Below, one piece after another: positions 1 through 19,352 of a stretch of 22,460 nucleotides of DNA. Under the pieces are notes generated by a model. It had not been told where the DNA came from. It did not search any database and was given only the letters and a program-made list of their open reading frames with translations. Every line of letters starts with the position of its first letter. Positions within the stretch are counted from its first letter, which is position 1. The stretch covers positions 1 to 22,460 of IMG/VR virus record IMGVR_UViG_3300042372_000168. One strand, 5' to 3'. This DNA comes from a virus. Made by a program: the position numbers and the translations under genes.

Positions 1-154
1 CACCGTTGCCGGTGCCGATGTTTACTGCCGCTTTGATGCCGTTAGAGTCGCCAGTGCCGACAATGCCAATGACAGAGCTGCGGACGGTGCGGATCGGGCG
101 TGCGCCGCTTTCGACTTCGAGGACTTGGACGCCGTGGAGGAATGTCTCGGACAT
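1..154 (-). CDS. FI: Tail sheath protein (P2 gpFI-like), N-terminal part
   Basis: This is the first 51 codons of a gene that runs off the left end of the window. The protein starts MSETFLHGVQVLEVESG and continues with a stretch reading RPIRTVRSSVIGIVGTG. That is the characteristic N-terminus of P2-like contractile tail sheath proteins, which wrap the tail tube and contract to drive DNA injection. The start is the ATG at 154-152. No Shine-Dalgarno sequence precedes it; instead TAACTT lies 6 nt upstream, with the conserved 19-bp element further up. In P2 the sheath gene FI follows fibre genes H and G and precedes tube gene FII, and the order here agrees. The identification rests on the N-terminus alone, but this segment is distinctive. 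Confidence 0.9.
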   Translation of the reverse strand, partial: MSETFLHGVQVLEVESGARPIRTVRSSVIGIVGTGDSNGIKAAVNIGTGNG

Positions 155-160
155 GGTGGG

Positions 161-202
161 AAGTTATGGGTGGGTGTTCTTGGGGTCGAGCGGGGTTTTG
201 TC
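161..202 (-). promoter_or_regulatory. Putative late promoter copy 1, upstream of sheath gene
   Basis: The exact 19-bp element GACAAAACCCCGCTCGACC (minus strand) occupies 202-184. Its last six bases, TCGACC, match the sigma70 -35 hexamer TTGACA at four of six positions. After a 17-nt spacer comes TAACTT (166-161), which fits the -10 core TAnnnT, and the sheath ATG follows 6 nt later. A transcript starting at the usual distance from this -10 would begin at or next to the ATG. The TGA stop of the preceding membrane-protein gene overlaps the first bases of the element. The repeat is seen directly; its promoter role is inferred. Confidence 0.6.
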
Positions 203-422
203 AGCGTGTTTTCCAGATGCACGAGCCGTGGCCGCATCCCTTCGAGAGTCGGTCGATGTCGTCCTGAAGTTTCTCGATGATCTTATCCTGCACGGAGAGT
301 CGGTCGGTGAGGCTGCGGTAGATGATCCCGGCAAGCGTCGCGATGACACCGCCGAGGAGGCCAAATACTGCAAGCACCCACGAGACGGGCACGACGAGTT
401 GAGAGGCGGTTGCGGTGTCCAT
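201..422 (-). CDS. Small membrane protein with C-terminal amphipathic helix (holin/spanin-like candidate)
   Basis: This is a 73-aa protein starting MDTATASQLV. Residues about 9-33 form one hydrophobic membrane segment rich in V, L, G and A. A charged, probably coiled-coil stretch follows (SLTDRLSVQDKIIEKLQDD), then a short Cys-containing tail (GCGHGSC). I chose the ATG at 422 because its first base is the last base of the TAA stop of the preceding small gene (TAATG), a classic coupling arrangement. An upstream in-frame ATG at 485 would add 21 unremarkable residues that overlap that gene. One membrane anchor followed by a coiled coil suits a spanin-type or accessory lysis protein, but there is no family-specific motif. 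The endolysin is about 5.4 kb away in the same transcription direction. Confidence 0.6.
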   Translation of the reverse strand: MDTATASQLVVPVSWVLAVFGLLGGVIATLAGIIYRSLTDRLSVQDKIIEKLQDDIDRLSKGCGHGSCIWKTR

Positions 423-577
423 TATCGTGCTGTTCTGTCGTTCGAGAGGTAGCCGAGAGCGGCGAGTGAAACCGGAAGAATCCAAGTCTTCCAGTCGGTG
501 ATCTCCGCTCCGTTTTGGACGGTGTTTTGCAACGCGGCGGCGGCGGCCGCGAGCAGTCCGATGATGGTCGTTTTCAT
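422..577 (-). CDS. 51-aa hydrophobic protein, holin-like
   Basis: A 51-aa frame starts MKTTIIGLLAAAAAALQ. It has a hydrophobic N-terminal stretch (about residues 4-16), a short polar part containing ITDWKTW, a second hydrophobic stretch (about 32-44) and a charged end (SNDRTAR). Two short membrane-type segments with a polar or basic tail fit the layout of small phage holins, which form the inner-membrane lesion that releases endolysin. It starts 3 nt after the stop of the 141-aa gene, and its TAA overlaps the ATG of the next membrane protein. That placement supports it as a real gene despite its size. Function is inferred from shape and context only. Confidence 0.55.
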   Translation of the reverse strand: MKTTIIGLLAAAAAALQNTVQNGAEITDWKTWILPVSLAALGYLSNDRTAR

Positions 578-580
578 GCG

Positions 581-1006
581 TTAGAGTAGTGGTTCGGGGA
601 TGGCGTTCTTGATCGCCTCCAGGTCGTCCGGAAGCGGGGTGGTGGTGATGTCTCTGAGAGCTTGCTTCTTGTCGGCGATCTCATTGCGCTTCGCCGTGCT
701 CAATCCCGCCTCGACCGCGCGCATGAGTTCCATGTCGAGCGCATCGAGCTTAGGCGCGCGGAGCTTCCGCCACACGTTGCGCTGAACCTCTTTCGCCGCC
801 TCGATGTCGATGGCAATCGCGCCGGCGTCCAGCTTCCACGCGTCGCGGAAATAGCGATCCTGCGGGAGCTGGTCGTCTTCGATGACTTTATGCTCCACGC
901 CCTCCGGAACCGCCGACGCGATGACCTTGTTGAGGGCGACTCCTGGCGCCGGATGCACAATGCATGTGCTGCCGTCGAGGTCTTGGTAGATGATGATTTT
1001 TGACAT
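581..1006 (-). CDS. Phage protein downstream of tail fibre (possible fibre-associated protein)
   Basis: The protein is 141 aa, starts MSKIIIYQDLDGSTCIVHPAPG and has an internal RYFRDAWKLD. Similar small proteins, beginning with this strand-rich segment and carrying an FRDAW-type motif, are common directly after tail-fibre or tail genes in phages. I know of no firm function for them. The C-terminal half, about residues 65-120, is helical and rich in K, R, E and A. The gene starts 13 nt after the collar-fibre gene ends, and 3 nt separate it from the next small membrane gene. It may act as a fibre chaperone, by analogy with P2 gpG which holds the same position after the fibre gene, but no sequence match to gpG is apparent. 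Confidence 0.65.
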   Translation of the reverse strand: MSKIIIYQDLDGSTCIVHPAPGVALNKVIASAVPEGVEHKVIEDDQLPQDRYFRDAWKLDAGAIAIDIEAAKEVQRNVWRKLRAPKLDALDMELMRAVEAGLSTAKRNEIADKKQALRDITTTPLPDDLEAIKNAIPEPLL

Positions 1007-1019
1007 GGCTTGGCTTTGG

Positions 1020-2804
1020 TTATGCGAAGGCGACGACGCAGATTTCGTCAGAGTCCTGAACGTCTGAACCTTCCGTCACGGTGATTTGCAGAGCGGATGT
1101 GGTCTTCGTTTCGCTCGAACGCGGCGACACCGTGCACGAGTCGGAAACGTCGTTGATCTGGCGGGCGGTGCCAACGAAGGCATAGAGAGAGCTTCCGAAA
1201 ACTCCATCCCAGTTGATCGTGTAGCGTCCGACGCCACGGTCAGTGATTGATGAGACCCCGTGCGAAGAGCGAATTGCGACCGTCCCAGCTCCGCTGAAAT
1301 TAACCCATGCCCTTGAAAGCCCGGGGGTCAGCCGCAGTGTCTGAGGCGTGACCGCTCGCACTGTATCTGTTCCGGTGTCGGTTTCCGTCTGCGTAGCTAG
1401 TTCGATGAGGCCAGCTCGTGTCGTGGTGGCCGTCACAGATGCGAGTCCCGCTGGAGTCACCGCACGCTCGGTATCGGTGCCGGTCTGCGTCTCGGTGTTG
1501 TTGGCCAGCTCGACCTTGCCCGCTGCCGTGGTCGAGGCAGAGGCAACCGTCGCGTTGATCGTGACGTTGGCCGCACCCGAGAACGAGGCTGATCCGGAGA
1601 GGTCGCCTCCGAGAGCGATGGTGCGAGCGGTGGCGAGTTGCGAGGCGGTGCTCGCGTTGCCGATGTAGCCAGGGCCGGTGAGCGTGCCGGTCATCGTGCT
1701 GCCGGACTTCCGGACGTAGATGTCCTCGGCCTGTCCTAAGAGGGCTGCGTCAACTTCGGAGAGCCTCTTTGCCTTGATGCAGGGCAGGAGCGCGACGTTG
1801 CGCGGGCGCGTCTCGCTAGCGTCCACCACCTGATTCGTGCCGGATGTTGCATATGGGCCGTTGTCGAATCCTGATACAGGTCCATACACGTGCTGGTCGT
1901 GCGCGTGGTTGCCGACGGTGTCGCCCTGGAACGATCCGAAAGCACGTCCCGAATCAATGCCGCGTCCGTTGTCCCAGCCCCGAATGAACTCGCCGCGAAG
2001 GTCGGGGATGTTGAAGGTCGTCGTGCCGTTCCCTACGCCGAAGCTCGTCCCGATCCGGGCGAAGAGAACGTCGTAGGTCGTGCGGCTGACTGCCTGCCCG
2101 TTACACTCCAGCCACGAATCTGGAGGCGTGTTCGCCGAGAAATAAGCCACCGTGCCGATGGGGATCGTGTCGCCTGCCGTGCGCTGATCGACGTATTCTT
2201 TGGTAGCCGCATGAAGCCCCGCTGTCGGATCACCCGGCAGCGTGAGCGCACCCGTCATCGTGTCGCCGGTCTTTTTCACATACCCGGCTGCGAGCTTGGC
2301 GGGAGTGACGATGCGCTCGTCATCGGTGCCTGCGCTCACTTCCGCGGTCGTCGCGATTTCGGCAACGCCCTTCACGGTCTGTGTGGCCTGCGGGTAGCTG
2401 AACGTGGTGTCGCCCACGGTGACCGAGCCAGCGGGAACGCCGGTGATGACCAAGTCCACCGCGATGAGCGCGACGGTTCCAGAACCCTTCGTGATGATGG
2501 GGCTAGACTGAGAGTAGATCGCCACGAGCGTATTGTCGGCAGTGAACAAGCCGATTTCCCGGACCGTGTAGGTATCGGTCGAGGAGTCGTTCGCGGTGAC
2601 GTGGATCGTGTCGTCGGCGACGGCACCTCCACCAGTGGCCGTGATCTTCTTGATCTCGGTGTTCAGAGCGGTGGCTGCAACGGTCGGAGTCCAACTGACT
2701 GAGCCGATGCCAACCTTGGCGATAGTGATCGGGTTCGTGCCGGTGTTGTTCGCGTTTACAATCGCGTTCTTGCCAGCGGTGGTGAGTAGGAATTGGAGTG
2801 ACAT
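1020..2804 (-). CDS. Tail fibre with collar domain (P2 gpH position)
   Basis: This is a 594-aa fibre protein. Residues about 1-140 (MSLQFLLTTAGKNAIVNA onward) match the N-terminal baseplate-attachment region of P2/Mu-type fibres (DUF3751-like). A phage tail-collar domain covers about 212-345, with IGTVAYFSANTPPDSWLECNG and FNIPDLRGEFIRGWD as hallmarks. Three copies of a fibre repeat of the form G-x-x-x-x-A-(x)n-GTD-x-x-R-x-VTP-x-x-L fall at about 146-171, 429-454 and 465-490. The C-terminus (RAWVNFSGAGTVAIR onward) resembles receptor-binding heads seen on many phage fibres. It starts 1 nt after the gpI stop. It probably binds the host surface and is fixed to the baseplate through the N-terminus. 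No invertible fibre segment or reverse-transcriptase cassette is near it. Confidence 0.88.
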   Translation of the reverse strand: MSLQFLLTTAGKNAIVNANNTGTNPITIAKVGIGSVSWTPTVAATALNTEIKKITATGGGAVADDTIHVTANDSSTDTYTVREIGLFTADNTLVAIYSQSSPIITKGSGTVALIAVDLVITGVPAGSVTVGDTTFSYPQATQTVKGVAEIATTAEVSAGTDDERIVTPAKLAAGYVKKTGDTMTGALTLPGDPTAGLHAATKEYVDQRTAGDTIPIGTVAYFSANTPPDSWLECNGQAVSRTTYDVLFARIGTSFGVGNGTTTFNIPDLRGEFIRGWDNGRGIDSGRAFGSFQGDTVGNHAHDQHVYGPVSGFDNGPYATSGTNQVVDASETRPRNVALLPCIKAKRLSEVDAALLGQAEDIYVRKSGSTMTGTLTGPGYIGNASTASQLATARTIALGGDLSGSASFSGAANVTINATVASASTTAAGKVELANNTETQTGTDTERAVTPAGLASVTATTTRAGLIELATQTETDTGTDTVRAVTPQTLRLTPGLSRAWVNFSGAGTVAIRSSHGVSSITDRGVGRYTINWDGVFGSSLYAFVGTARQINDVSDSCTVSPRSSETKTTSALQITVTEGSDVQDSDEICVVAFA

Positions 2805-2805
2805 G

Positions 2806-3336
2806 TCAGTAGGTAGCTAGTGCGTTGAGGCGGGCGAAAATCGCGGGGCGAAGAACTCCGACGATGTTCACCTCGCCGCTGCCAGTCGTGCCGAAGATGA
2901 TGTCGTAGTGCGAGCGCAAAGGCTTGTTTCGATCCACTGCTTTTGCCATCGCGTCTTGCATGGCGATTGTCGCGTTAGGGTTGACGATGTAGATCGTGAA
3001 GGTGTGCGGAGTTCCGGTCGGCGATTTCTCGAACCACTCGACGAGCTGCGAGTCAGCACCCAGCGAGGCCAGCGCACCGCGAACAGCACCCGAAGTGCCT
3101 TTCTGGCGGTGCGTGCTGATCGACGTGCGCACGACTGATCGCTTGATGGTTTCCGTCCAGTTTGGATCCCAAGTATCGACCGAGAGCGCCCAGGCCAGCC
3201 ACGGCAGCAGGACAACCGGGCACGCGTCAGCGCTCCACAGGTCACGGATCGGCGTGGGAACAGTCGCCGCACGTTCCACCGCGAGCGAGATTGCTCGCTC
3301 TTGGCTCGTCGCGGAGATGGGCAGAAGATCATTCAT
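2806..3336 (-). CDS. I: Tail protein I (P2 gpI-like baseplate protein)
   Basis: The protein is 176 aa, close to the usual length for P2 gpI. Near the N-terminus it carries the family hallmark: leucine-rich DLLPISATSQERAISLAVER, then DLWSADACPVVLLPWLAWALSVD. The Pro-x-x-Leu-Pro-Trp-Leu-Ala-Trp-type motif is typical of phage tail protein I, which sits at the baseplate edge and helps join the tail fibre. Its ATG overlaps the end of the gpJ gene by 8 bp. The order W-J-I-fibre is the P2 order, supporting the assignment. The C-terminal third is divergent. Confidence 0.92.
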   Translation of the reverse strand: MNDLLPISATSQERAISLAVERAATVPTPIRDLWSADACPVVLLPWLAWALSVDTWDPNWTETIKRSVVRTSISTHRQKGTSGAVRGALASLGADSQLVEWFEKSPTGTPHTFTIYIVNPNATIAMQDAMAKAVDRNKPLRSHYDIIFGTTGSGEVNIVGVLRPAIFARLNALATY

Positions 3337-4225
3337 CGGTGCCTGAAAGCGTTACGGTTCTGTGTGTGCAGTGCCCGTATGAGGTTTCATTGATCGTGAT
3401 GTTTGAGGTCGGGTGAGTTAGGTTCACTCGCTGCACTCCGGGCTGGTGGAGCGCGGCGTAAATTCCCGATAGAGTAATGTCGAAGCCCACCTTCAGAACG
3501 CTTGCAATGTAGGCGTCGAGCGCGTCGATAGCAGCCGTTAGAACCACTGAGGAATCGGGGCCGGGATAGGTGTAGATCGACGCCGTGATGTGGTAATTTA
3601 CTTTCGACGCGGCCTGCACGGTAACGAGGTCAGTTAGAGGCCTGATAGACTCGTCGTTGAGAGCGGCGGCGACTGCATTTATTACCGTGGTCGTGGGCTG
3701 TCCGTTGCCGACGCGTGAGAGAACAGAAATCAAGACTTCGCCGGGGTCGGGAGACGTAGCAGAAACGTCTAGCACGTCAGGATGCGCGGACAGCGCGTGG
3801 AAGATGTAGGCACCCTCCGGCCCTGCGGTGCTGAAACCTTCGAGCGAAAGCGTGATGCGTCCGCGAAAGTCCGCATCCGATTCCATCACTGCGGGGATGG
3901 GCGGGATCGCGGAGAGGTTCGCCTCGGTGATCACAAGCCGCGTCACCCCGAAGAGTGCGCCGATATGGTCGAGATCGGAGCCGAGAGCGTAGGCAAGCAT
4001 GGTCGCCCTGGCAGCGTCGTTGATGCGCTGGCGGATGATCACCTCGCGGTATGCCGCGACTTCGAGAATTTTATACGCCGGATCGGACTCCACGAGCGCG
4101 GAGAACTCCGGATCGCGTGCCTGGAGGTCGGCGAGCATCGCGGCGAAGATCGTCTCGAAGCTGAGCTGCTCCACCACCACGGGCGCGGGCAAGCTGGAAA
4201 GGTCGATGTTGGTGAACGCATTCAT
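3329..4225 (-). CDS. J: Baseplate assembly protein J
   Basis: The protein is 298 aa, near the roughly 300 aa typical of P2 gpJ. It opens with a segment pairing LPAPVVVEQLSFE with FAAMLADLQARDP. Next comes the conserved DPAYKILEVAAYREVIIRQR and ARATMLAYALGSDLDHIGAL, the signature of the baseplate J family. Wedge proteins of this family form the inner baseplate ring together with W. The ATG overlaps the gpW stop by 4 bp (ATGA), implying coupled translation. I see no truncation or odd residue. Confidence 0.95.
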   Translation of the reverse strand: MNAFTNIDLSSLPAPVVVEQLSFETIFAAMLADLQARDPEFSALVESDPAYKILEVAAYREVIIRQRINDAARATMLAYALGSDLDHIGALFGVTRLVITEANLSAIPPIPAVMESDADFRGRITLSLEGFSTAGPEGAYIFHALSAHPDVLDVSATSPDPGEVLISVLSRVGNGQPTTTVINAVAAALNDESIRPLTDLVTVQAASKVNYHITASIYTYPGPDSSVVLTAAIDALDAYIASVLKVGFDITLSGIYAALHQPGVQRVNLTHPTSNITINETSYGHCTHRTVTLSGTDE

Positions 4226-4971
4226 ATTACGATGCCGTCGAGGAATACGGGTTGGCCGGTCGGGAGGTAGATCGCCTCAAGGTCGATGACGATTGAGCCA
4301 GCGCGTGAGTTCTGTGGAACGGAAGCGGTGGCGACCGGGGGAGCTGCTTCGGTGATAATCGGCGTTCCGGTGGGTACCGCACCGTCGCCAATAGCTACGG
4401 CGGGTGCCCAGTCGGGGGCGAGGTTAGGCGTCGGTTGCAGGGCGAACTCTCGGATACCCGTCGTCCACGCGGAGCCTCCGGAGATATTCGGGTAATAGCC
4501 CATCACCCAGCGTCCCGATGTGCTGGTGGCGGCCTGCCATTGCACAATGATGGACGGGAAAACCGTGGTGGCGTCGCCCACCCCATAAGCCGGTTTCCCG
4601 TCTATGTCGGCGATGCGCGGGAGGAAGCCGGTGGCGTTTGGGGTGAGCGTCCCGCCGATCATAATGCCGGGTGGGCCAATCTGGATCGGAGCACTCGGCA
4701 CGCTCGCATCCTCTGCTGTGAATCGTCTCGCCTGCACGCGGGTGACCTGCAAGCGCGGTTCCCAACGGATCAGAGCCTCGGCAGTGGCCGCGAAAAGATC
4801 CACGAGGGTTTGCTCGTTGAGCGGATTATCGACCAGGTCGAAGAGCCTGGAGCCGTAGTTCCGGCGCATGACACGCGAACCCAGAGGAGTCGTCAGAATG
4901 TCCCTGATCGACTGCCGAAGGTGAGCCAGTCCGGAGAGGATTTTTCCGGTTCTTGCGTTGGTGCCTCGCAT
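4222..4971 (-). CDS. W: Baseplate assembly protein W (gp25-like) with a large insertion
   Basis: The protein is 249 aa from the ATG at 4971, about twice the length of P2 gpW (about 115 aa). The N-terminal part, residues about 8-83, is a clear gpW/gp25 wedge domain (GLAHLRQSIRDILTTPLGSR, then RRNYGSRLFDLVDNPLN, then EALIRWEPR). The family's closing strand (SIVIDLEAIYLPTGQPV) appears only at about 226-242. Between them lies an insertion of about 140 residues, roughly 84-224, rich in P, G, T and A and containing GRWVMGYYPNISGGSAW. A GTG at 4980 would add three residues. I prefer the ATG because its distance from the upstream 19-bp element matches the other copies and because the GTG overlaps the proposed -10. 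It begins the W-J-I-fibre unit. Confidence 0.88.
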   Translation of the reverse strand: MRGTNARTGKILSGLAHLRQSIRDILTTPLGSRVMRRNYGSRLFDLVDNPLNEQTLVDLFAATAEALIRWEPRLQVTRVQARRFTAEDASVPSAPIQIGPPGIMIGGTLTPNATGFLPRIADIDGKPAYGVGDATTVFPSIIVQWQAATSTSGRWVMGYYPNISGGSAWTTGIREFALQPTPNLAPDWAPAVAIGDGAVPTGTPIITEAAPPVATASVPQNSRAGSIVIDLEAIYLPTGQPVFLDGIVI

Positions 4972-4978
4972 TCGTCGC

Positions 4979-5020
4979 ACGGTAGGAACGGCGTTGCCCT
5001 TGGTCGAGCGGGGTTTTGTC
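4979..5020 (-). promoter_or_regulatory. Putative late promoter copy 2, upstream of baseplate W
   Basis: The 19-bp element GACAAAACCCCGCTCGACC occupies 5020-5002 on the minus strand. A 17-nt spacer leads to TACCGT (4984-4979), and the gpW ATG lies 7 nt further on. The stretch from this -10 to the ATG (CCTACCGTGCGACGAATG) matches that of copy 3 (CCTACCTTCGCACCAATG) at 13 of 18 positions. A hairpin terminator ends just upstream. That suits a promoter that restarts transcription for the baseplate genes. Confidence 0.62.
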
Positions 5021-5025
5021 TCCCA

Positions 5026-5060
5026 ACAGAAACTCCCGCCACCGGCGAGGGTGACGGGAG
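5026..5060 (-). terminator. Hairpin terminator between HNH gene and baseplate W
   Basis: On the minus strand CTCCCGTCACC (5060-5050) pairs with GGTGGCGGGAG (5043-5033) across the 6-nt loop CTCGCC. This gives 11 pairs with a single G-U, followed by TTTCTGT. It has the form of a rho-independent terminator, although the T-tract is broken. It would stop transcripts coming through the endolysin-tRNA-HNH segment. The next 19-bp promoter-like element begins 6 nt past the T-tract. Confidence 0.65.
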
Positions 5061-5083
5061 AACACTAGCCACGGGGAAAGCAA

Positions 5084-5107
5084 TTGCAGGGGCGGGATTT
5101 GAACCGG
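5084..5107 (-). other. tRNA-like 3' end fragment (T-arm plus acceptor strand)
   Basis: Directly after the TAA of the HNH gene the minus strand reads CCGGTTCAAATCCCGC and then CCCTGCAA. GGTTCAAATCC is a perfect T-arm (B-box) consensus, and CCCTGCA plus A would be the acceptor 3' strand and discriminator base. The T-stem is imperfect, with three of five pairs, and no matching D- or anticodon arm lies next to it. The matching acceptor 5' strand TGCAGGG is not found near the HNH gene. It is either a remnant of a tRNA cut by the HNH gene, a phage attachment-type sequence, or chance. Confidence 0.45.
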
Positions 5108-5476
5108 TTACAATTCGATCAAACCTGCGTGCAGTTTGGCGTGGCAGTTTTTACAAAGACAGACGCACTTTTCCAGCTCTTTTTCAATCTTGCCCTTTCC
5201 TATTTTTTGTCCATTTGAAACAGCTCCAATAGTGAAGTCCTTTGTGGATGGGTCAATATGGTGAGCATCCAAACAGGCGTGACAAGTCTCTCCGCATTTT
5301 TTGCATCCTTTTGATCTAAAGTCGGAGAGCAAAATTTTTATATGAACAGTCGTTTTTCTAGCGTTTTTCTTAACCCTAGCAAGGTGCTTCGCTTTGAACA
5401 CCGGATCTTTTTCAAGTCGCCTGCGCATGTATTCACGATGGTATTCCCTCCTTTTTTCTTGGTCCTTTAGTGGCAC
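5108..5476 (-). CDS. HNH endonuclease (homing type)
   Basis: The protein is 122 aa from a GTG start. The N-terminus is strongly basic (PLKDQEKRREYHREYMRRR), as in the many small free-standing phage HNH enzymes, and probably binds DNA. Zinc-knuckle cysteines are C58-x-x-C61 and C108-x-x-C111. The catalytic HNH core includes H72-H73 in ACLDAHHIDP and the final NCHAKLH (H112, H116). HNH enzymes cut DNA with one metal ion, and homing types spread their own gene. The gene is visibly more AT-rich than its neighbours, with codons such as AAA, TTT and AAT. It interrupts the P2-like V to W interval, between a tRNA gene and a tRNA-like fragment, so I read it as a recent mobile insertion. Confidence 0.88.
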   Translation of the reverse strand: MPLKDQEKRREYHREYMRRRLEKDPVFKAKHLARVKKNARKTTVHIKILLSDFRSKGCKKCGETCHACLDAHHIDPSTKDFTIGAVSNGQKIGKGKIEKELEKCVCLCKNCHAKLHAGLIEL

Positions 5477-5494
5477 GACTTGAAGCTACGGATT

Positions 5495-5524
5495 TATAAA
5501 GATCATTCAAGAATATTAAACCAA
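5495..5524 (-). promoter_or_regulatory. Weak candidate promoter for HNH gene
   Basis: In the AT-rich 52 nt between the tRNA and the HNH gene, the minus strand reads TTGGTT (5524-5519), an 18-nt spacer, then TTTATA (5500-5495). TATAAA two bases further on is an alternative -10, but with a 20-nt spacer. Base composition alone makes such matches likely, so this is only a candidate. Confidence 0.25.
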
Positions 5525-5528
5525 GAAA

Positions 5529-5601
5529 TTACAGCGGTCAGGATCGAACTGACGACCTCATGGGTATGAGCCAAGCGAGCTGCCAACTGCTCTACGCTGC
5601 G
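5529..5601 (-). tRNA. tRNA with CAT anticodon (tRNA-Met type)
   Basis: A complete 73-nt cloverleaf can be folded. The acceptor is CGCAGCG/CGCTGTA with a C1-A72 mismatch and a G-U at pair 2-71. The D-stem is GAGC/GCTC with loop AGTTGGCA. The anticodon arm is CTTGG-CTCATAC-CCATG with one T-T mismatch at 28-42 and anticodon CAT. The variable loop is AGGTC. The T-arm is GTCAG-TTCGATC-CTGAC, and the discriminator base is A. No CCA is encoded. It probably decodes AUG; a CAT anticodon could also be a modified Ile tRNA. The C1-A72 mismatch recalls initiator tRNAs, but the anticodon stem lacks their three G-C pairs. It sits between the endolysin and the HNH gene and is probably transcribed with them. 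Confidence 0.87.
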
Positions 5602-5677
5602 TTTGGCGGGAGTGCCCAAGGTATTGACGCGCTTGCCGAAGCATTCCGTCGATAAGCTCGAACCCTCCCGTTTGGGT

Positions 5678-5728
5678 GCCTGCCCTCTCTCGCTATCCTT
5701 ACGGAGTCACGGCGGAAAGAGGACAGGC
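5678..5728 (-). other. Long RNA hairpin in the endolysin-tRNA gap
   Basis: In the 187-nt gap between the endolysin and the tRNA, which has no supported gene, the minus strand reads GCCTGTCCTCTTTC (5728-5715). It pairs with GAGAGAGGGCAGGC (5691-5678) over 14 pairs. The 23-nt loop contains TCC-GTAA-GGA, a small inner hairpin with a GNRA-type loop. Both non-Watson-Crick pairs are G-U in the minus-strand RNA; on the plus strand they would be C-A mismatches. There is no T-tract after it, so it is not an ordinary terminator. It may be a processing site or a small structured RNA. Confidence 0.5.
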
Positions 5729-5788
5729 GGTGCACCAACCAATGATGCGAGGGCAAGTTGCCAACGCTGCGGAAGTTGTCGAGGAAAT

Positions 5789-6364
5789 TCAGCGGGTCGC
5801 CTGAAAATGCATGCTATCGAAGCCCCAGAACGCCCCAGCCGAAACCCAGCCTTCACGGGCGAACGCCTCCATGATTTCGAGCGGCATGTCAGCTTGCAGC
5901 GGCCACGTGTCCCGGAACGTGTTGTCGTCCGCGTCGAGGTCGATTGCTGCCCCCCATGCGTGAAGGCTCTTCGTGCTGCCGTCCCGCTTGTTCCGGTCGT
6001 TGTAGATTCCTCCGTAGTCCTCGGCCTCGTCCTTGATGTGCGGGAGTCGCGGGATCAGGTCACGGATCGCCGTGAGGATTCGGAGCAACGAGGCTGCGCA
6101 CTTCCGGTGAACGCGGGTGCGCGTGACGCGGATCCCGCCGTAGAACATCGGGTAGGGGAAATCGATCATCACCAGATTGGCCTCGTCCCCTGGCTCTCCG
6201 TAGAACGCGCGGAGCGATGCTTGGTCGGACGCTGGCCACGGGTTCGGAGTCGGCATGAGCGAACGGAGGTAGGCGCGGCACGCGGCTTGTGACTTCGGCC
6301 CCCAGAACCCGTCCGGGGTGACACCGATCTTGGTTTGCATCGCGATGATATGATCTCTGGTCAT
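5789..6364 (-). CDS. Endolysin, M15-family D,D-/L-D-peptidase
   Basis: The protein is 191 aa. The N-terminus, residues about 4-35 (IIAMQTKIGVTPDGFWGPKSQ), looks like a short peptidoglycan-binding repeat. The catalytic part carries the M15 zinc signature S-L-H-A-W-G-A-A-I-D with H135 and D142, and the closing WGFDSMHFQ with H186. Enzymes of this family cut peptide cross-links in the cell wall to release phage. No signal peptide is present, so it needs a holin to leave the cytoplasm. I start it at the ATG at 6364, which overlaps the TGA of the preceding gene (ATGA). A longer frame back to 6544 adds low-complexity residues over the DUF1353 gene. Placement between V and W is unusual for a P2-like order. 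Confidence 0.9.
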   Translation of the reverse strand: MTRDHIIAMQTKIGVTPDGFWGPKSQAACRAYLRSLMPTPNPWPASDQASLRAFYGEPGDEANLVMIDFPYPMFYGGIRVTRTRVHRKCAASLLRILTAIRDLIPRLPHIKDEAEDYGGIYNDRNKRDGSTKSLHAWGAAIDLDADDNTFRDTWPLQADMPLEIMEAFAREGWVSAGAFWGFDSMHFQATR

Positions 6365-6852
6365 GGCGCGGTCTTGTGTTTGGTATTGCAGGAGATGGCT
6401 GCGGAACTGGAACCGGTAATTTTGCGGTGCAGTCCGCCGAAGATCGAAACCGCGGCATGATAGGGAGCAGCTAGAATGCTGCCTTCCTGACGCATGAGGT
6501 GATAGAGGACGTCGTCGGCTTGCGAGAAGGTCCACGGGCAGCACGGCAGGCGGCCGAACTGATAGAGGAAATCGTGCACGAAGAACCCGGGAGCGGTCTT
6601 CCGGTGCGACGGTGTTCCGAACCTGAGCTTCCCGATCGTGAAGAAATGCGGACTCGCGCCGTCGGACGCATACCCGGCGAATATCGTCAGCCTGTCATCG
6701 ACAAGCGTCCCCATCATCCTTCCGCGATGAACTAACGTGTGTTCTCCGCACAGCCCAAGGCAAAGGTCTGTGACGAGATCGGAGGTCAATACGAACGGCC
6801 ATTTGCCGGGAACGGTGGTGTAGTTACAGTCGGTCAATGTTAGAGGCTTCAT
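6361..6852 (-). CDS. DUF1353 phage protein
   Basis: The protein is 163 aa. The central part (GYASDGASPHFFTIGKL, then RKTAPGFFVHDFLYQ) matches the DUF1353 pattern of Y-x-(S/T)-DGAS-x-P and (A/G)-x-x-VHD-x-LY. DUF1353 proteins are common in phages next to endolysins or tail genes; their function is unknown. The conserved D, H and D residues look like a possible metal or catalytic site, which is my inference. It begins 3 nt after the gpV stop, and its stop overlaps the endolysin ATG, so it probably belongs with the lysis or baseplate functions. The C-terminus includes a small hydrophobic patch (AAPYHAAVSIFGGL) that may be a buried helix rather than a membrane span. Confidence 0.78.
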   Translation of the reverse strand: MKPLTLTDCNYTTVPGKWPFVLTSDLVTDLCLGLCGEHTLVHRGRMMGTLVDDRLTIFAGYASDGASPHFFTIGKLRFGTPSHRKTAPGFFVHDFLYQFGRLPCCPWTFSQADDVLYHLMRQEGSILAAPYHAAVSIFGGLHRKITGSSSAAISCNTKHKTAP

Positions 6853-6855
6853 ACT

Positions 6856-7350
6856 TCAAGGGATTGGTGCTCCGGTCGGAGCTGGCTCGGAAGCCGTGTG
6901 AACGTGAGTGTGGTCCTTCAGGCTTATCGTTCCGGCCTTCACGTCGGCGGATGTCTCGATGTTGCAGTTCACGGTGATTTTCCCGCCCGAGAAACTAAGC
7001 GTTGCGCCTCCCACTCGAATCTCGAAGTTCCCACCCGCTGGGATGTCGATGCGGTAAGTGTTGTCGGCGGCGGTCGGCGCGCCGTATTCGCTCGTGTTGA
7101 TCGATCCGAACATCACGAAGCCTGACTCGAGTTCGCCCATCGGTGAGCAAACGCAGACTTGCTCGCCGATGCTTGGCGGGTTCCAGTCCTTCACCGCACC
7201 GGCTCGGCCAGTCATCCACGGAAGCCACGCCGTGACGGCCTCGCCGAATTGCACCTTGACCCGCCCCGTCGAGCGTTCGACTTCAGCGATCTTGCCGACG
7301 CGGAACAGGTTCGCCATGCGGCGTTGAAGGTCTCCGATCTCTGCGCTCAT
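6856..7350 (-). CDS. V: Baseplate assembly protein V (central spike)
   Basis: The protein is 164 aa. The N-terminal OB-like domain (FRVGKIAEVERSTGRVKVQFG, WLPWMTGRAG, then GEQVCVCSPMGELESGFVMFGSIN) is the gpV/gp45 fold of P2 and Mu spike proteins. Next is a beta-helical stretch (FEIRVGGATLSFSGGKITVNCN) and a histidine-containing apex, DHTHVHTASEPAPTGAPIP. In this family the tip histidines hold an iron or zinc ion and the trimer pierces the outer membrane. A spike of this type implies a Gram-negative-type envelope. The ATG overlaps the previous gene's stop by 4 bp. Here V is separated from W by the lysis genes and the tRNA-HNH island. Confidence 0.93.
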   Translation of the reverse strand: MSAEIGDLQRRMANLFRVGKIAEVERSTGRVKVQFGEAVTAWLPWMTGRAGAVKDWNPPSIGEQVCVCSPMGELESGFVMFGSINTSEYGAPTAADNTYRIDIPAGGNFEIRVGGATLSFSGGKITVNCNIETSADVKAGTISLKDHTHVHTASEPAPTGAPIP

Positions 7351-7889
7351 TCGGTGATCTGCACGGGCGGGTTAGGTGTTTCTCCGGCAAGGCCTCCGGA
7401 AGAGTAGACCTCGGAGGCGGACGGGAGCGGGTTGCCTTCCTCGTCCTCGGAGTCCAGTCGCCATGTGTCCGCGCCGAGCAGAGCCTCGTGCGAGAACTCC
7501 ACGCGCATGACCTCGTAGTCATCCTCTTTGCCTCGGATCACGTCGGGGTAGGCACCCAGCGCACTCGCCGCGCCGACTGGCACTCCCCAGCGCTTTCCGC
7601 GCACGAACGCCAGCACGGCGCCAGCCAGCGTCTTGACCGCCTGCTTCTGCCCGGACTTGTAGTCGAGCACGCAGTAGGCGTTGAAGTTGAGCACGCACGG
7701 CAGTTGCTCCGTGCCGATGTCGTCCGGGTCGTCGGCTTGGATGTCCTCCATCTCCAGCAAAATTCCAGGCGTGACGATGCGGTCGCCTGGTCTGCCGTAG
7801 AACGCCACGGTCGCGTCGGGATACTTCGCGGTGAGCGCGTCTTTGATCGCCTCGTGGAGATCGTCGATGTCGGTGGTGGGTTGTTTCAT
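7347..7889 (-). CDS. Putative tail-completion/terminator-type protein (Mu gp37-like position)
   Basis: The protein is 180 aa. It begins with a helical DIDDLHEAIKDALTAKYPDATVAFYGRP, then IVTPGILLEMEDIQADDP, and a strand-rich middle (LNFNAYCVLDYKSGQKQAVKTLAGAVLAFV). This alpha-beta layout, with an early Pro-Ala/Gly-(V/I)-LLE segment, is typical of the tail-terminator or completion proteins that precede V in P2/Mu-type phages. The C-terminal 40 residues are acidic and Pro/Ser-rich and probably disordered. It is joined to its neighbours by 4-bp ATGA overlaps on both sides. The role, joining tail to head or capping the tube, is inferred from fold pattern and position. Confidence 0.55.
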   Translation of the reverse strand: MKQPTTDIDDLHEAIKDALTAKYPDATVAFYGRPGDRIVTPGILLEMEDIQADDPDDIGTEQLPCVLNFNAYCVLDYKSGQKQAVKTLAGAVLAFVRGKRWGVPVGAASALGAYPDVIRGKEDDYEVMRVEFSHEALLGADTWRLDSEDEEGNPLPSASEVYSSGGLAGETPNPPVQITE

Positions 7890-8497
7890 GCGCGTGCGAT
7901 ATTGAGGTTGCCGACGATGCCGGCTGAATCGCCTTCGTCGCGGCCTGTGGCCTTGTCCAGTTCGATGAAGAAAAATTCGACGAACTTCGCCGCGACACGG
8001 GTTTCGAACTCCGCGAGGTAGGCGGTGCTCTTCGCCTCGATGGAGTGGTCGAGTTGCTTGATCGGGAGCCTTTCCTTGCCCACGCGCTGGAACGCATGGC
8101 CACCGAGTGCGCCGGAAATGAACCCGCCCTTGTAGGTGGTGCCTCGTGAGCGGATGCCTTTTTTCTGCTGCTTCGCGCCGAGGTATTTCAGGCTGATCGG
8201 GTTGAGGCCATACCAGAGACGGGCGGTCGAGTAGCCCTTGACGGACTGGTATTGAAACTTGATCCGCAGGCCTTTGCGGAGGGTGTGAAGCGGGACGTTG
8301 GCGGCTTTCGCCAGACCGCGCGCGCCTTCACGGTTTGCCCATTGGCCGGTCTTACGGACGGCCACTCTGAGCGCGGCCTTCATTTCTTTCTGCAAGACAC
8401 CCAGCAGTTCCTTCACGCGCTCCCAATCCTGAAAGACGAAGAGCGCGAGAAGGTTCTGTGCGGCGGCTGGCTCGAATCTGTTTCCTTCGGTGCTCAT
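7886..8497 (-). CDS. Z: Minor tail protein Z-like
   Basis: The protein is 203 aa and basic. The middle carries the gpZ hallmark: LWYGLNPISLKYLGAKQQKKGI, GGFISGALGGHAFQRVGKERLPI, and a preceding KGLRIKFQY segment. Phage minor tail protein Z helps complete the tail so it can join the head. An N-terminal helical region, residues about 14-60, precedes this core. It overlaps both neighbours by 4 bp. It lies after a FII-like joining protein and before the tail-completion candidate, which is the expected neighbourhood. Confidence 0.85.
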   Translation of the reverse strand: MSTEGNRFEPAAAQNLLALFVFQDWERVKELLGVLQKEMKAALRVAVRKTGQWANREGARGLAKAANVPLHTLRKGLRIKFQYQSVKGYSTARLWYGLNPISLKYLGAKQQKKGIRSRGTTYKGGFISGALGGHAFQRVGKERLPIKQLDHSIEAKSTAYLAEFETRVAAKFVEFFFIELDKATGRDEGDSAGIVGNLNIARA

Positions 8498-8796
8498 GGT
8501 TCGTGCGCGAGCTGGATCACTGCGAAGCCGGTTCCGTCGGGTTGCGGAGGGCGGGACACCGAGTAGGCTTTACCGCGGATCGTCGTCATGGCTTCACGCG
8601 GGATGCCGACGGAGTCAGACTCCGCACACGTCACCCGGGGCTGGGTCGTGTCGAGGACGGTCTCGCCGGTCTCCGCGTCAATGAAGCCATCGTCGAAGAT
8701 GCCCCTCAACGTCTTCGTTCCATCCTCCCACTCGAAAACGATTTCGTCGTCTTCGGAGAAGTCTTTGAGAAACACGCTGAGGGGATCGCGGATCAT
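8494..8796 (-). CDS. Head-tail joining protein candidate (lambda FII-like)
   Basis: The protein is 100 aa and acidic. The N-terminus (DPLSVFLKDFSEDDEIVFEW) and the end (TTIRGKAYSVSRPPQPDGTGFAVIQLA) follow the common layout of small head-tail attachment proteins. In those a beta-barrel ends with a G-x-x-Y-x-V-x-x-x-x-x-D-G-x-G-(x)4-L strand pair. It sits two genes after the capsid, where lambda and HK97-type phages place such proteins. It overlaps its neighbours by 4 bp at each end. Family assignment is by pattern, not a diagnostic motif. Confidence 0.6.
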   Translation of the reverse strand: MIRDPLSVFLKDFSEDDEIVFEWEDGTKTLRGIFDDGFIDAETGETVLDTTQPRVTCAESDSVGIPREAMTTIRGKAYSVSRPPQPDGTGFAVIQLAHEP

Positions 8797-9047
8797 TTGC
8801 CTCGTCCGTTCTTAGGAGTTGGTTTGGCGGGTTCCGCCTCGCCTTCTGGAAACGGAGCGACACCGTTCTCGGTGCTGATCACGCCTCCCGTTGCGGGTTC
8901 GGGTTCCGGCTCGCCTTCGACGGTAACGGCCTCAGCACGCTTTGCGCTGATGAGCTGGAGGCCGAACGTGCGGTTCACTTCGACGACCTCCCCGGTCTGG
9001 TATATTTTGCCTTCGATGCCGATGTTGCGGAGTAGTTTGATTTTCAT
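8793..9047 (-). CDS. Small phage protein following capsid gene, disordered tail
   Basis: The protein is 84 aa. Residues 1-40 (MKIKLLRNIGIEGKIYQTGE, ending LISAKRAEAV) form a small SH3-like strand set known from many short phage proteins next to capsid genes. The remainder is Glu/Pro/Gly-rich (EGEPEPEPATGG) and probably disordered. It is the first gene after the terminator that follows the capsid gene, and it leads the chain of 4-bp overlaps down to gpV. No function is established for such proteins. An A-rich ACAAAA, not a Shine-Dalgarno sequence, precedes its ATG. Confidence 0.7.
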   Translation of the reverse strand: MKIKLLRNIGIEGKIYQTGEVVEVNRTFGLQLISAKRAEAVTVEGEPEPEPATGGVISTENGVAPFPEGEAEPAKPTPKNGRGK

Positions 9048-9071
9048 TTTTGTTGGTGCTTCTACTTATGG

Positions 9072-9105
9072 AAAAAGGGGCGGGCAGCATAACCACCCGC
9101 CCCTT
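9072..9105 (-). terminator. Strong hairpin terminator after capsid gene
   Basis: On the minus strand AAGGGGCGGG (9105-9096) pairs perfectly with CCCGCCCCTT (9084-9075) around an 11-nt loop. An unbroken TTTTT at 9076-9072 overlaps the stem end. It starts 22 nt past the capsid stop. A rho-independent terminator here would let the capsid message accumulate above the downstream joining and tail genes, which then rely on read-through. Confidence 0.85.
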
Positions 9106-9127
9106 GAGGATCATTCAGGGCAACCCA

Positions 9128-11176
9128 TTAGGCAGGGTTGGTCTTGAACCAGGAGAACGACTCCGGACGGCGGATCGCGAAGTCCACGTCTTGGAACTGC
9201 GTGATGCGGATACGGCCTTTGTCGCTGTGGGTGTAAGGATCGACAGTCACGTCGAGGCCACCCCACATGCCGATCATCATGTCGGCCCAGTTTCCGAAGA
9301 ACACGTCGCCGGTGGTCACCTGATTGGAGACGCGGGTAGCGTAGCCGTTCACGGTGTTGCCGGGTTCCCAGATCGTGCCGGTGTCGCCACCGCCGCTGAA
9401 CTTCTGCGTGGTCTTCAGGTGACCGCGCATGCGGGCATTGAAGATGTAGAGCATGCTCTCCACGTCCGCGTCGTCGGCGGCGATCTCGGTTTCCATCTTC
9501 ACCAGTTCGGCGAAGGTGGGAGCGTCGTCGGCGGCCCACATGTCGGCATTGATGCCGGACTGGAGGGAGAGACCTCTTGGCTGGTTGTTGGCGTTCGTGC
9601 CGTAGAGACCGGCGCGGTCGATTTCGAGAGCCATCACGGTCGCGAGGTCGCGACGGAAGAGGGCTTCGACACCGAGCGAGTTCTGCATGAGCAACTTTCG
9701 AGTCAGCTCGCCGCGTGCGGAGAGAGTCTTCGGACGGAGGCTCACGAGGCCGAACGTGATGCCGGTCGATTCAGCGGCTTCGTCTTCGCCGATCCAGCTT
9801 GCGGCAGGGCCGGTCGCTTGTTTCGGGATGTCGATGTTACCGACCAGACCGCCAAGCTCGGAACCGAGACCCATGAGCGCGGAACGCTTGCGGAGCAGGT
9901 CGATGAACGAGGTGGTGAGAAGCACCGTCTCGATGCTGTTCGTGCCAGCGTTGGTGTAGCCGGAAGCGGTCTTCGCGCCGACGATGGTATCGGCACGCTG
10001 TCCCTTGAGCGGCTGGAGGAGAACGTCAACGGGAATGACCGTGCCCTTTGCGGAGCGGTGGGTCATCGCGTCGGCGGCGGTGCGGCAGGCTTCGAGTTCG
10101 AAGGCGGCTTCGTCGCGGAACTTCTTCGCTTGCTCAGGCTCGGCGCAGAGTGCGCGGAAGAGCTTGATCATGCTGAAGCCGCGAGACTCCTTCTCGCTCA
10201 GGCCGATGGGACGGGTGCCGTCGACCACGGACTTATTCCGCTTGTCGAGGTGATCGACAAGGGTGGTGCGGAACTGTTCGAGGGTCTGGCCTTTCTCGAC
10301 TGCTTCCTGGGCGAGGTCGCCAGCTTCGTATTGCTTGCCAGCGGCGAAGATCGCGCGAACACGATCCTGCTCGGCCTTCACGGCTTCGGCGGGAGTCGGC
10401 TCGTTGACGACCTGAGCGCGCTGAGCGGCGGTAGCTGGTGCGGGCGCGGGAGCGGGAGCGGGGTTGAGGGAGCGGGTGACAAGCGCGGCAAGATCAGCGT
10501 CGCTGATTTCGTCGGCCACAGTGATTCCGCGAGCGCGGAGCGCTGCGAGCATTTGTTCACGATTCATGATGTTGTTTTCTGGATGATTGGAGGTTTCAGG
10601 CTTGGTGAAGAACGAGCGGGCGTCGCGCCCGATTCCGACAGTGATGTCCGCAGGCACCGTCACAATGGAGACCTCGTAGGGTTCCCACCGTGTGACCGTG
10701 TAAACGTCCACGTTGTCGCGTTCTTCGGTTAGTTTCACTTCGCGGATGCGGTATCCGACCGACACATTGCCCAGGATTCCGGCCTGAACGTCGCGCCAGA
10801 CTTTCTCGCCGTCGTCGCTCTCGCTGAATCGGACTACACACCGGCCTTTCCGGTCTGCACCTATGGTTGCGGATTCGACGACGCCGACATACTTGTCCAC
10901 GTCATGATTGAAAAGAAGGGGAGCGCCGGAGCGCAGGCGGCTCATGTCCACCGCGTCGGGGGCGTGGGACAGAACCTCGATCATACCCGGCCAGCGTTCC
11001 AGCTCGATGTCGGAGCTGAATGAGAACTCGGCGGTGCGAGCCTCCACGTTGATGGCCCGCTTGTCGATCATCGCCATCCGGAAGCATGCCTGCCCATCGG
11101 CGACGATGTGCTGAGGGATCGCGCCCGCGTTGCGGGTCAGGATCATTCCGGCTGTGATGTAAGGGCGGGGACTCAT
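9128..11176 (-). CDS. Prohead protease-major capsid protein fusion (HK97-like)
   Basis: This is a 682-aa single frame joining two normally separate proteins. Residues about 35-190 are an HK97-type prohead protease (RSGAPLLFNHDVDKYVG with H91; GILGNVSVGYRIREV with S139; YEVSIVTVPAD), a serine protease that trims the head during maturation. A linker (TKPETSNHPENNIMN) leads at M204 to a scaffold-like region of about 140 residues. It includes a run of Ala-Pro repeats and helical, charged segments. Residues about 345-682 are an HK97-fold capsid protein, with VDVLLQPLKG, TSFIDLLRKRSAL, RGELTRKLLMQNS and the C-terminal DVDFAIRRPESF. The ATG at 10567 (M204) could give a separate 479-aa capsid product. 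The start at 11176 lacks a Shine-Dalgarno sequence and lies 7 nt from a TAnnnT. Confidence 0.9.
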   Translation of the reverse strand: MSPRPYITAGMILTRNAGAIPQHIVADGQACFRMAMIDKRAINVEARTAEFSFSSDIELERWPGMIEVLSHAPDAVDMSRLRSGAPLLFNHDVDKYVGVVESATIGADRKGRCVVRFSESDDGEKVWRDVQAGILGNVSVGYRIREVKLTEERDNVDVYTVTRWEPYEVSIVTVPADITVGIGRDARSFFTKPETSNHPENNIMNREQMLAALRARGITVADEISDADLAALVTRSLNPAPAPAPAPATAAQRAQVVNEPTPAEAVKAEQDRVRAIFAAGKQYEAGDLAQEAVEKGQTLEQFRTTLVDHLDKRNKSVVDGTRPIGLSEKESRGFSMIKLFRALCAEPEQAKKFRDEAAFELEACRTAADAMTHRSAKGTVIPVDVLLQPLKGQRADTIVGAKTASGYTNAGTNSIETVLLTTSFIDLLRKRSALMGLGSELGGLVGNIDIPKQATGPAASWIGEDEAAESTGITFGLVSLRPKTLSARGELTRKLLMQNSLGVEALFRRDLATVMALEIDRAGLYGTNANNQPRGLSLQSGINADMWAADDAPTFAELVKMETEIAADDADVESMLYIFNARMRGHLKTTQKFSGGGDTGTIWEPGNTVNGYATRVSNQVTTGDVFFGNWADMMIGMWGGLDVTVDPYTHSDKGRIRITQFQDVDFAIRRPESFSWFKTNPA

Positions 11177-11183
11177 TGGTGCG

Positions 11184-11226
11184 AAGGTAGGCGGGCGACG
11201 AGTCTAGGGTCGAGCGGGGTTTTGTC
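11184..11226 (-). promoter_or_regulatory. Putative late promoter copy 3, upstream of capsid gene
   Basis: GACAAAACCCCGCTCGACC occupies 11226-11208 on the minus strand. An 18-nt spacer leads to TACCTT (11189-11184), and the capsid ATG follows 7 nt later. It lies in the 184-nt gap after the lectin-like gene, just past two micro-ORFs. A promoter here would separate capsid expression from the upstream adhesin cassette. Confidence 0.62.
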
Positions 11227-16211: not shown

Positions 16212-17035
<824 letters not shown>

Positions 17036-17039
<4 letters not shown>

Positions 17040-18872: not shown

Positions 18873-19352
18873 TCAGAAGCGGACTGCGATTCGTGGCCCG
18901 AGCGTGGATCGTCCCGCCTCGGCGCGCTCTTCGCGTTTGTATTCGGCCTTCCAGTAGGAGAGCAGTTGCAGAAGCTCGGCCACCGAGTAGCGCTCAAGCT
19001 CGCGGTTGTTGATCCGGTATCGGCGTACGCCTTCCCCGGCATTACCTTCGAGCATGGCCTGCACGGCCTCGATGTTGCGCTGTGCGATGTTGCGTCGATC
19101 ACCGACACCCAGCACGTCTTCGAGCTTGAAGTTGCCGCGCGAGATGACGCCAATGCGCCCGCCTTGGTAGGTTCCCCACGCCTGCCACTCGTAGAACCCA
19201 GCCACCCAATCGGCGGTCAATGCGCTCCCAAGCCACGTGATGCCGGCTTTCGTCGCGGTGATCGTCCGGGTCGCTGGGCCACCTAGGCGGAACTCGACAG
19301 CCGTTGCTTCGGCGTCGTCCACTTGGATTCTGAGCGTTTCCCCCTTGATCAT
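18873..19352 (-). CDS. Head-tail connector with gpW-like C-terminus and N-terminal beta domain
   Basis: The protein is 159 aa. The C-terminal half, residues about 92-159 (NIEAVQAMLEGNAGEGVRRY, INNRELERYSVAELLQLLSY, KREERAEAG, ending RIAVRF), resembles lambda gpW: a helix, a two-strand turn with 'R(R)Y-x-I-N-(x)-R-E-L', and a second helix. gpW (about 68 aa) plugs the portal and joins the tail. The first 85 residues are an extra strand-rich domain (ETLRIQVDDAEATAVEFRLG, then ADWVAGFYEWQAWGTYQGG). It is similar in style to the Ig-like domain of the 114-aa protein after the portal. Its place between the large terminase and the portal is exactly that of gpW in lambda. The ATG lies 2 nt after the terminase stop, with no strong Shine-Dalgarno sequence. 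Confidence 0.75.
   Translation of the reverse strand: MIKGETLRIQVDDAEATAVEFRLGGPATRTITATKAGITWLGSALTADWVAGFYEWQAWGTYQGGRIGVISRGNFKLEDVLGVGDRRNIAQRNIEAVQAMLEGNAGEGVRRYRINNRELERYSVAELLQLLSYWKAEYKREERAEAGRSTLGPRIAVRF

Follow-up and report, generated by a model that had tools for sequence, protein, structure and literature searches.

The late region of a contractile-tail phage, encoded on the minus strand of a 22,460-bp IMG/VR fragment (IMGVR_UViG_3300042372_000168; the whole stretch analysed, referred to here as the window), raises the question of whether virion genes can be transcribed from promoters that abut their start codons, leaving the mRNA without a 5' leader. A preliminary description had proposed such an arrangement for the genes of the tail sheath, the gpW/gp25 baseplate wedge protein (hereafter gpW) and the capsid. 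Within the window, the terminase and portal are lambda-type, the prohead protease and capsid are fused, the baseplate and tail are P2-type, and the late genes are packed tightly on a single strand.

An exact 19-mer, GACAAAACCCCGCTCGACC, occurs four times in the window and on the late strand only, against a chance expectation of 0.02. Three copies end 17, 17 and 18 nucleotides (nt) upstream of -10 boxes at the sheath, gpW and capsid genes, respectively, and the fourth, which falls within the terminase gene at its 3' end, precedes the hexamer GATAGT by 17 nt. The 19-mer as an anchor for the boxes and its fourth copy are additions to the preliminary description; the boxes themselves are as reported there, ending 6, 7 and 7 nt before the start codon (TAACTT-N6-ATG at 154, TACCGT-N7-ATG at 4971 and TACCTT-N7-ATG at 11176). 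If +1 falls 7 nt downstream of the hexamer, as expected from sigma70 geometry, the predicted leaders measure 0 nt at the sheath, 1 nt at gpW and 1 nt at the capsid gene. The fourth 19-mer sits 79 nt before the ATG at 19352, with a predicted leader of ~50 nt. The elements and the genes that follow them are:

184..202, minus strand: 19-mer GACAAAACCCCGCTCGACC of the sheath promoter, proposed late-activator site
161..166, minus strand: sheath promoter -10 box TAACTT, with transcription predicted to start on the A of the ATG at 154 (leader 0 nt)
1..154, minus strand: tail sheath gene, 5' part, ATG at 154, cut by the contig end
5002..5020, minus strand: 19-mer of the gpW promoter
4979..4984, minus strand: gpW promoter -10 box TACCGT, with transcription predicted to start on an A at 4972 (leader 1 nt)
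4222..4971, minus strand: gpW/gp25 baseplate wedge gene, ATG at 4971, 249 amino acids (aa)
11208..11226, minus strand: 19-mer of the capsid promoter
11184..11189, minus strand: capsid promoter -10 box TACCTT, with transcription predicted to start on an A at 11177 (leader 1 nt)
9128..11176, minus strand: fused prohead protease and major capsid gene, ATG at 11176
19432..19450, minus strand: fourth 19-mer, within the terminase large subunit gene at its 3' end
19409..19414, minus strand: fourth promoter -10 box GATAGT, with transcription predicted to start near 19402
18873..19352, minus strand: head-tail joining gene, ATG at 19352, first gene downstream of the fourth promoter

We consider it likely that the 19-mer, together with the hexamer 17-18 nt downstream, constitutes a late promoter that the phage uses four times. 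A Mor/C-family activator that the phage produces ahead of the late phase would bind the 19-mer (at about -48 to -30) and recruit the host's sigma70-type RNA polymerase, which would then use the degenerate -10 box NAnnnT delineated by conservation. Given sigma70 geometry, transcripts of the sheath, gpW and capsid genes would begin with the A of the ATG or 1-2 nt earlier, and the resulting leaderless mRNAs would be translated through direct recognition of the 5' AUG. The fourth promoter would fire ~50 nt before the head-tail joining gene.

Two long viral relatives, G1 (L022; 77% capsid identity) and G2 (L103; 87% terminase identity), form together with the window the clade considered here. Further comparison involved named phages of Jilinvirus, Foxunavirus, Manovirus and other groups ('cousins'), located by tblastn. 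The window's capsid is ~45% identical to those of Jilinvirus and Manovirus and the regulon layout matches, pointing to a possible relationship with the Iiscvirinae (Jilinvirus and relatives). At all four of the window's loci, G1 carries an altered motif, GACAAAACCGCGCAAGACC, and G2 another, GACA[AG]AACCACGCTCGACC; allowing up to three mismatches, no copies of either were found outside these loci in the two genomes. Such coordinated change within each genome is what would be expected for the sites of one trans-acting protein. Four short viral contigs harbor the exact 18-mer, either where the terminase gene ends or at gpW. Among the cousins the motif takes genus-specific versions (GACAAACCCCAAGAAGA in ep3, GACACCCCGCACGAAGA in Arya, GGAAAATCCGCAAGAGG in Mano, GGAAATTCCGGACATGG in FoX5, and others) and is placed at the terminase end, inside the capsid gene, at gpW and at the sheath, as well as before the lysis genes in ep3 and Mano. 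The copy within the fused protease-capsid gene of cousins (L148:20880, L151:5262, L150:5467, L153:5971 and others) marks a putative internal late promoter, whereas in the window's clade the promoter precedes this gene. When complete E. coli genomes were queried for ep3-type prophages, the ep3 gpW promoter region returned no match.

With respect to the start-abutting geometry, a TAnnnT box lies 6-8 nt before the ATG at eight of the nine late starts in the clade (sheath, gpW and capsid in three genomes) as compared to one of 65 other starts (p = 5e-9), and the looser NANNNT occupies this place at all nine. Spacers of 17 nt share merely 2-7 positions between clade genomes at the capsid and gpW genes, and 9-11 at the sheath. 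At capsid and gpW, the geometry is thus kept although the spacer sequence diverged to chance identity. In-frame stop codons at -12 before the sheath ATG (a TAA inside the -10 box itself) and at -30 or -21 before the capsid ATG mean that no upstream start is possible for these two genes. The conserved box-to-ATG distance in relatives supports a sigma70-type -10 element that would place +1 at the ATG of all three genes or 1-2 nt before it, in line with the start sites originally expected, and makes a leaderless mRNA the interpretation to prefer for each of them, as a prediction from sequence.

The arrangement at gpW reaches further. Its hexamer-to-ATG gap measures 5-9 nt in 14 out of 14 genomes. 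The sheath promoter of the cousins, on the other hand, lies tens of nt upstream, with the motif of most cousins at about -86 to -89, and an SD-like AGGA (SD, Shine-Dalgarno) usually precedes the start. In SD-using cousins, E. coli phages included, gpW alone retains a start-abutting promoter. The arrangement at gpW is common to the broader group, phages of SD-using hosts among them, and its extension to capsid and sheath is special to the SD-free clade.

SD usage requires a distinction between these groups. Across the window, G1 and G2, not one of 72 genes shows an SD match of 5 nt, and matches of 4 nt, found in 10% of these genes, are rarer than at random positions (22-24%). The preliminary description had correctly noted that the sheath, gpW and capsid starts lack an SD, but in a clade that is SD-free throughout, this absence is ruled out as evidence for leaderlessness. 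In SD-using cousins, where 4-nt matches precede 66% (ep3), 82% (Arya) and 52% (Mano) of genes, it is diagnostic at gpW: none of the 12 gpW genes having the motif carries an SD, compared with 13 of 17 homologues without the motif (p = 6e-5, for a motif set that includes L025, placed there on inspection, and for genes that are not fully independent owing to their homology).

The assignment of the gpW start to the ATG at 4971 instead of the in-frame GTG at 4980 held up. Homology begins at this ATG, whose Met has a homologous counterpart in relatives (tblastn from residue 1), the GTG begins inside the -10 box, and neither G1 nor G2 has an in-frame alternative start. The gpW start was probably misannotated 34 codons downstream in KA2-1 (L166) and PT1 (L155), and probably also in Mano (L150), where the annotated GTG lies upstream of the -10 box; the present analysis corrects these gpW annotations. 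A comparable misannotation probably affects the sheath of Mica (L167), whose ATG falls inside the -10 box. The window's gpW, at 249 aa, exceeds the 111-112 aa of G1, G2 and the cousins compared by an insertion of ~137 aa between residue ~85 and the conserved C-terminus. In several genomes (L148, L164, L168, L150, L023, L030, L162), inverted repeats of 7-12 bp flank the gpW -10 box; their 3' arm lies near, reaches or includes the ATG, and their sequence varies by genus while the symmetry is kept. Such a hairpin is clear in cousins; in the window, G1 and G2 it is weak or lacking, and it was ruled out as part of the window's mechanism.

The promoters might be real and the functional mRNAs nonetheless leadered, either because transcription starts further upstream or because most gpW, capsid and sheath protein derives from read-through of upstream operons. 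The tight packing of the late genes on one strand would suit this explanation, and in an SD-free clade leadered mRNAs are translated without an SD anyway. A leadered promoter, however, has no need for a box-to-ATG distance fixed at 6-8 nt in three non-homologous genes across three genomes with chance-like capsid and gpW spacers, and gpW lacks an SD even in SD-using cousins, in several of which the hairpin could mask the gpW start in read-through RNA. We therefore hold leadered messages to be unlikely.

What reads these promoters? In 14 genomes, all 55 motif copies are followed at a fixed distance by NANNNT, that is, an A at position 2 and a T at position 6 of a hexamer that lies 19 or 20 nt beyond the motif's 17-nt core; at control pairs of offsets that do not overlap this place, the same two bases were found in at most 9 of the 55 copies. 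A2 and T6 are the key bases of the sigma70 -10 element. The predicted position of the 19-mer upstream of this element, ~-48 to -30, corresponds to the -35 region. A Mor/C-family protein is encoded in both G1 and G2, directly ahead of the terminase genes or at the contig end that corresponds to this place. The G1 protein matches the PHROG late transcriptional activator (phrog_836) with E=3e-17, with its Pfam Mor match below the gathering score, and the G2 protein matches Pfam Mor (E=1e-6) and the PHROG late transcriptional activator (E=8e-14). Activators of this type are also encoded by ep3, ECO1230-10, PT1, Mano and Alexa. We take the 19-mer and box to mark a real, activator-dependent late regulon, probably a Mu-like one.

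Alternatively, a phage sigma factor or a modification of the polymerase might read the 19-mer and box as one bipartite promoter, in place of a Mor/C activator acting with host sigma70. Box and 19-mer do co-vary within a genome (all three start-abutting boxes of G2 are TAACGT), and the Mor-like protein of G1 shows a weak Sigma70_r4_2 match (E=0.02), which is explained by the common helix-turn-helix. Set against this are the Mor/C late activators encoded in relatives and cousins, the A2/T6 pattern, which is the sigma70 -10 signature, and a site position that fits the Mor site of Mu (-51 to -36; PMC4287176), and a phage sigma factor or polymerase modification seems decidedly improbable. That the 19-mer is a recombination, packaging or replication site and the TAnnnT boxes are coincidental is barely credible: its unusual conservation, even inside the terminase coding sequence, would fit, but strand, position before the late units and, in 55 of 55 copies, the distance to NANNNT are all fixed.

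In P2, the first genes of the late operons are portal, capsid, baseplate and sheath genes, and in the kind of gene that starts an operon the window's promoters resemble those served by P2 Ogr. They differ in the activator family and in having no TGT-N12-ACA near -55; this pattern matched once in the window, on the opposite strand and well away from these starts, which rules out P2/Ogr sites. A host genome repeat was likewise ruled out as the origin of the 19-mer, whose 13 exact matches among 84,980 bacterial and archaeal species (one genome per species) were single and scattered over unrelated taxa, a distribution compatible with chance.

Several observations weigh against the activator-dependent, leaderless promoters that we favor. 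Leaderless mRNAs are usually poorly translated in E. coli, and read-through mRNA could therefore supply part of the gpW. Leaderlessness is not general, given the leader predicted at the fourth promoter; the leaderless late mRNAs proposed in the preliminary description thus find comparative support at sheath, gpW and capsid and do not extend to this fourth unit. No activator gene lies within the window, itself a partial genome. The window's 19-mer, moreover, has no clear dyad symmetry (at most three of nine complementary pairs), which is why we refer to it as Mu-late-promoter-like and do not class it as Mu type.

Mu offers a close parallel, with a small helix-turn-helix activator of the Mor/C family and, like the window, four late promoters, which in Mu depend on C. 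Its Mor protein occupies -51 to -36, where a -35 element is missing (PMC4287176). The Mor/C-activated middle and late promoters of Mu (Pm, Plys, PI, PP, Pmom) share with those of the window a site upstream of and overlapping the -35 region, a sigma70 -10 element and a poor -35 (PMC4287176), whereas the window's site is unrelated in sequence and three of the four promoters abut a start codon. As the preliminary description stated, TANNNT boxes close to the start are known from leaderless genes in other bacteria, namely Actinobacteria and Deinococcus-Thermus (Zheng 2011, PMC3160421; PMC12340547). There, too, the first T lies ~12-13 nt before the ATG—12, 13 and 13 nt at the window's sheath, gpW and capsid—and no SD is present. 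The window differs in that these are phage genes under an activator site, that position 1 of the box tolerates G or C, and that the host is not known to belong to those phyla. Leaderless expression of the most abundant virion proteins had also been called unusual for a phage, a statement to be tempered by leaderless phage mRNAs already predicted from two promoters, PL1 and PR2, in Cluster O mycobacteriophages (PMC4351075). Those promoters are likewise predicted to start at the first base of the codon; they are SigA-like and belong to mycobacterial phages, in contrast to the virion genes and the conserved, probably trans-activated regulon described here. A search of the open literature for promoters of Jilinvirus brought up nothing relevant, which is weak evidence given that most subscription journals fell outside its scope.

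Upstream of gpW, the window encodes a tRNA with initiator features, and further copies occupy the late region upstream of gpW in SD-poor phages:

5529..5601, minus strand: phage tRNA-Met(CAT), initiator-like, with a C1:A72 mismatch, upstream of gpW
L144:7243-7316, minus strand: initiator-like tRNA-Met(CAT)
L146:11319-11394, plus strand: initiator-like tRNA-Met(CAT)
L028:6099-6173, plus strand: initiator-like tRNA-Met(CAT)

An unpaired 1:72 position is a hallmark of initiator tRNAs, and the CAT-anticodon tRNAs of the window, G1, G2 and L028 have C:A, C:C, C:A and C:A there, respectively. The GGG:CCC of the anticodon stem is present in G1 and not fully so in the window, G2 and L028. No CAT tRNA was found in the examined regions of SD-using cousins, nor upstream of gpW in the close relative L007. 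Any link of this tRNA to leaderless translation is speculation. Between it and gpW lies an HNH endonuclease open reading frame (5108-5476) with 52% GC versus ~61%, a possible homing insertion. Elsewhere in the window, between portal and capsid, a long collagen-like Gly-X-Y repeat protein (16212-17039) contains many 9-nt-phased DNA repeats.

As for the wider meaning, we tentatively raise the possibility that a contractile-tail lineage tied promoters to start codons, with gpW always leaderless even in phages of E. coli and other SD-using hosts, and that an SD-free branch extended this to capsid and sheath, served by a phage initiator-type tRNA. Leaderless messages of phages have so far been viewed as isolated oddities; in the present case, many phage genera conserve the distance from promoter to AUG at a named virion gene, and a candidate activator is at hand. 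One cousin, HeidiAbel (Bas97), grows on E. coli K-12 with restored O-antigen, as described in the BASEL paper, according to which the isolates of its genus are few and not well characterised, and which leaves late promoters unmentioned (PMC11990801). The conserved spacing, the candidate activator and this cousin together make it directly testable why a phage would produce a baseplate protein from a leaderless mRNA, and whether virion genes with high expression can do without a leader where SDs are not used.

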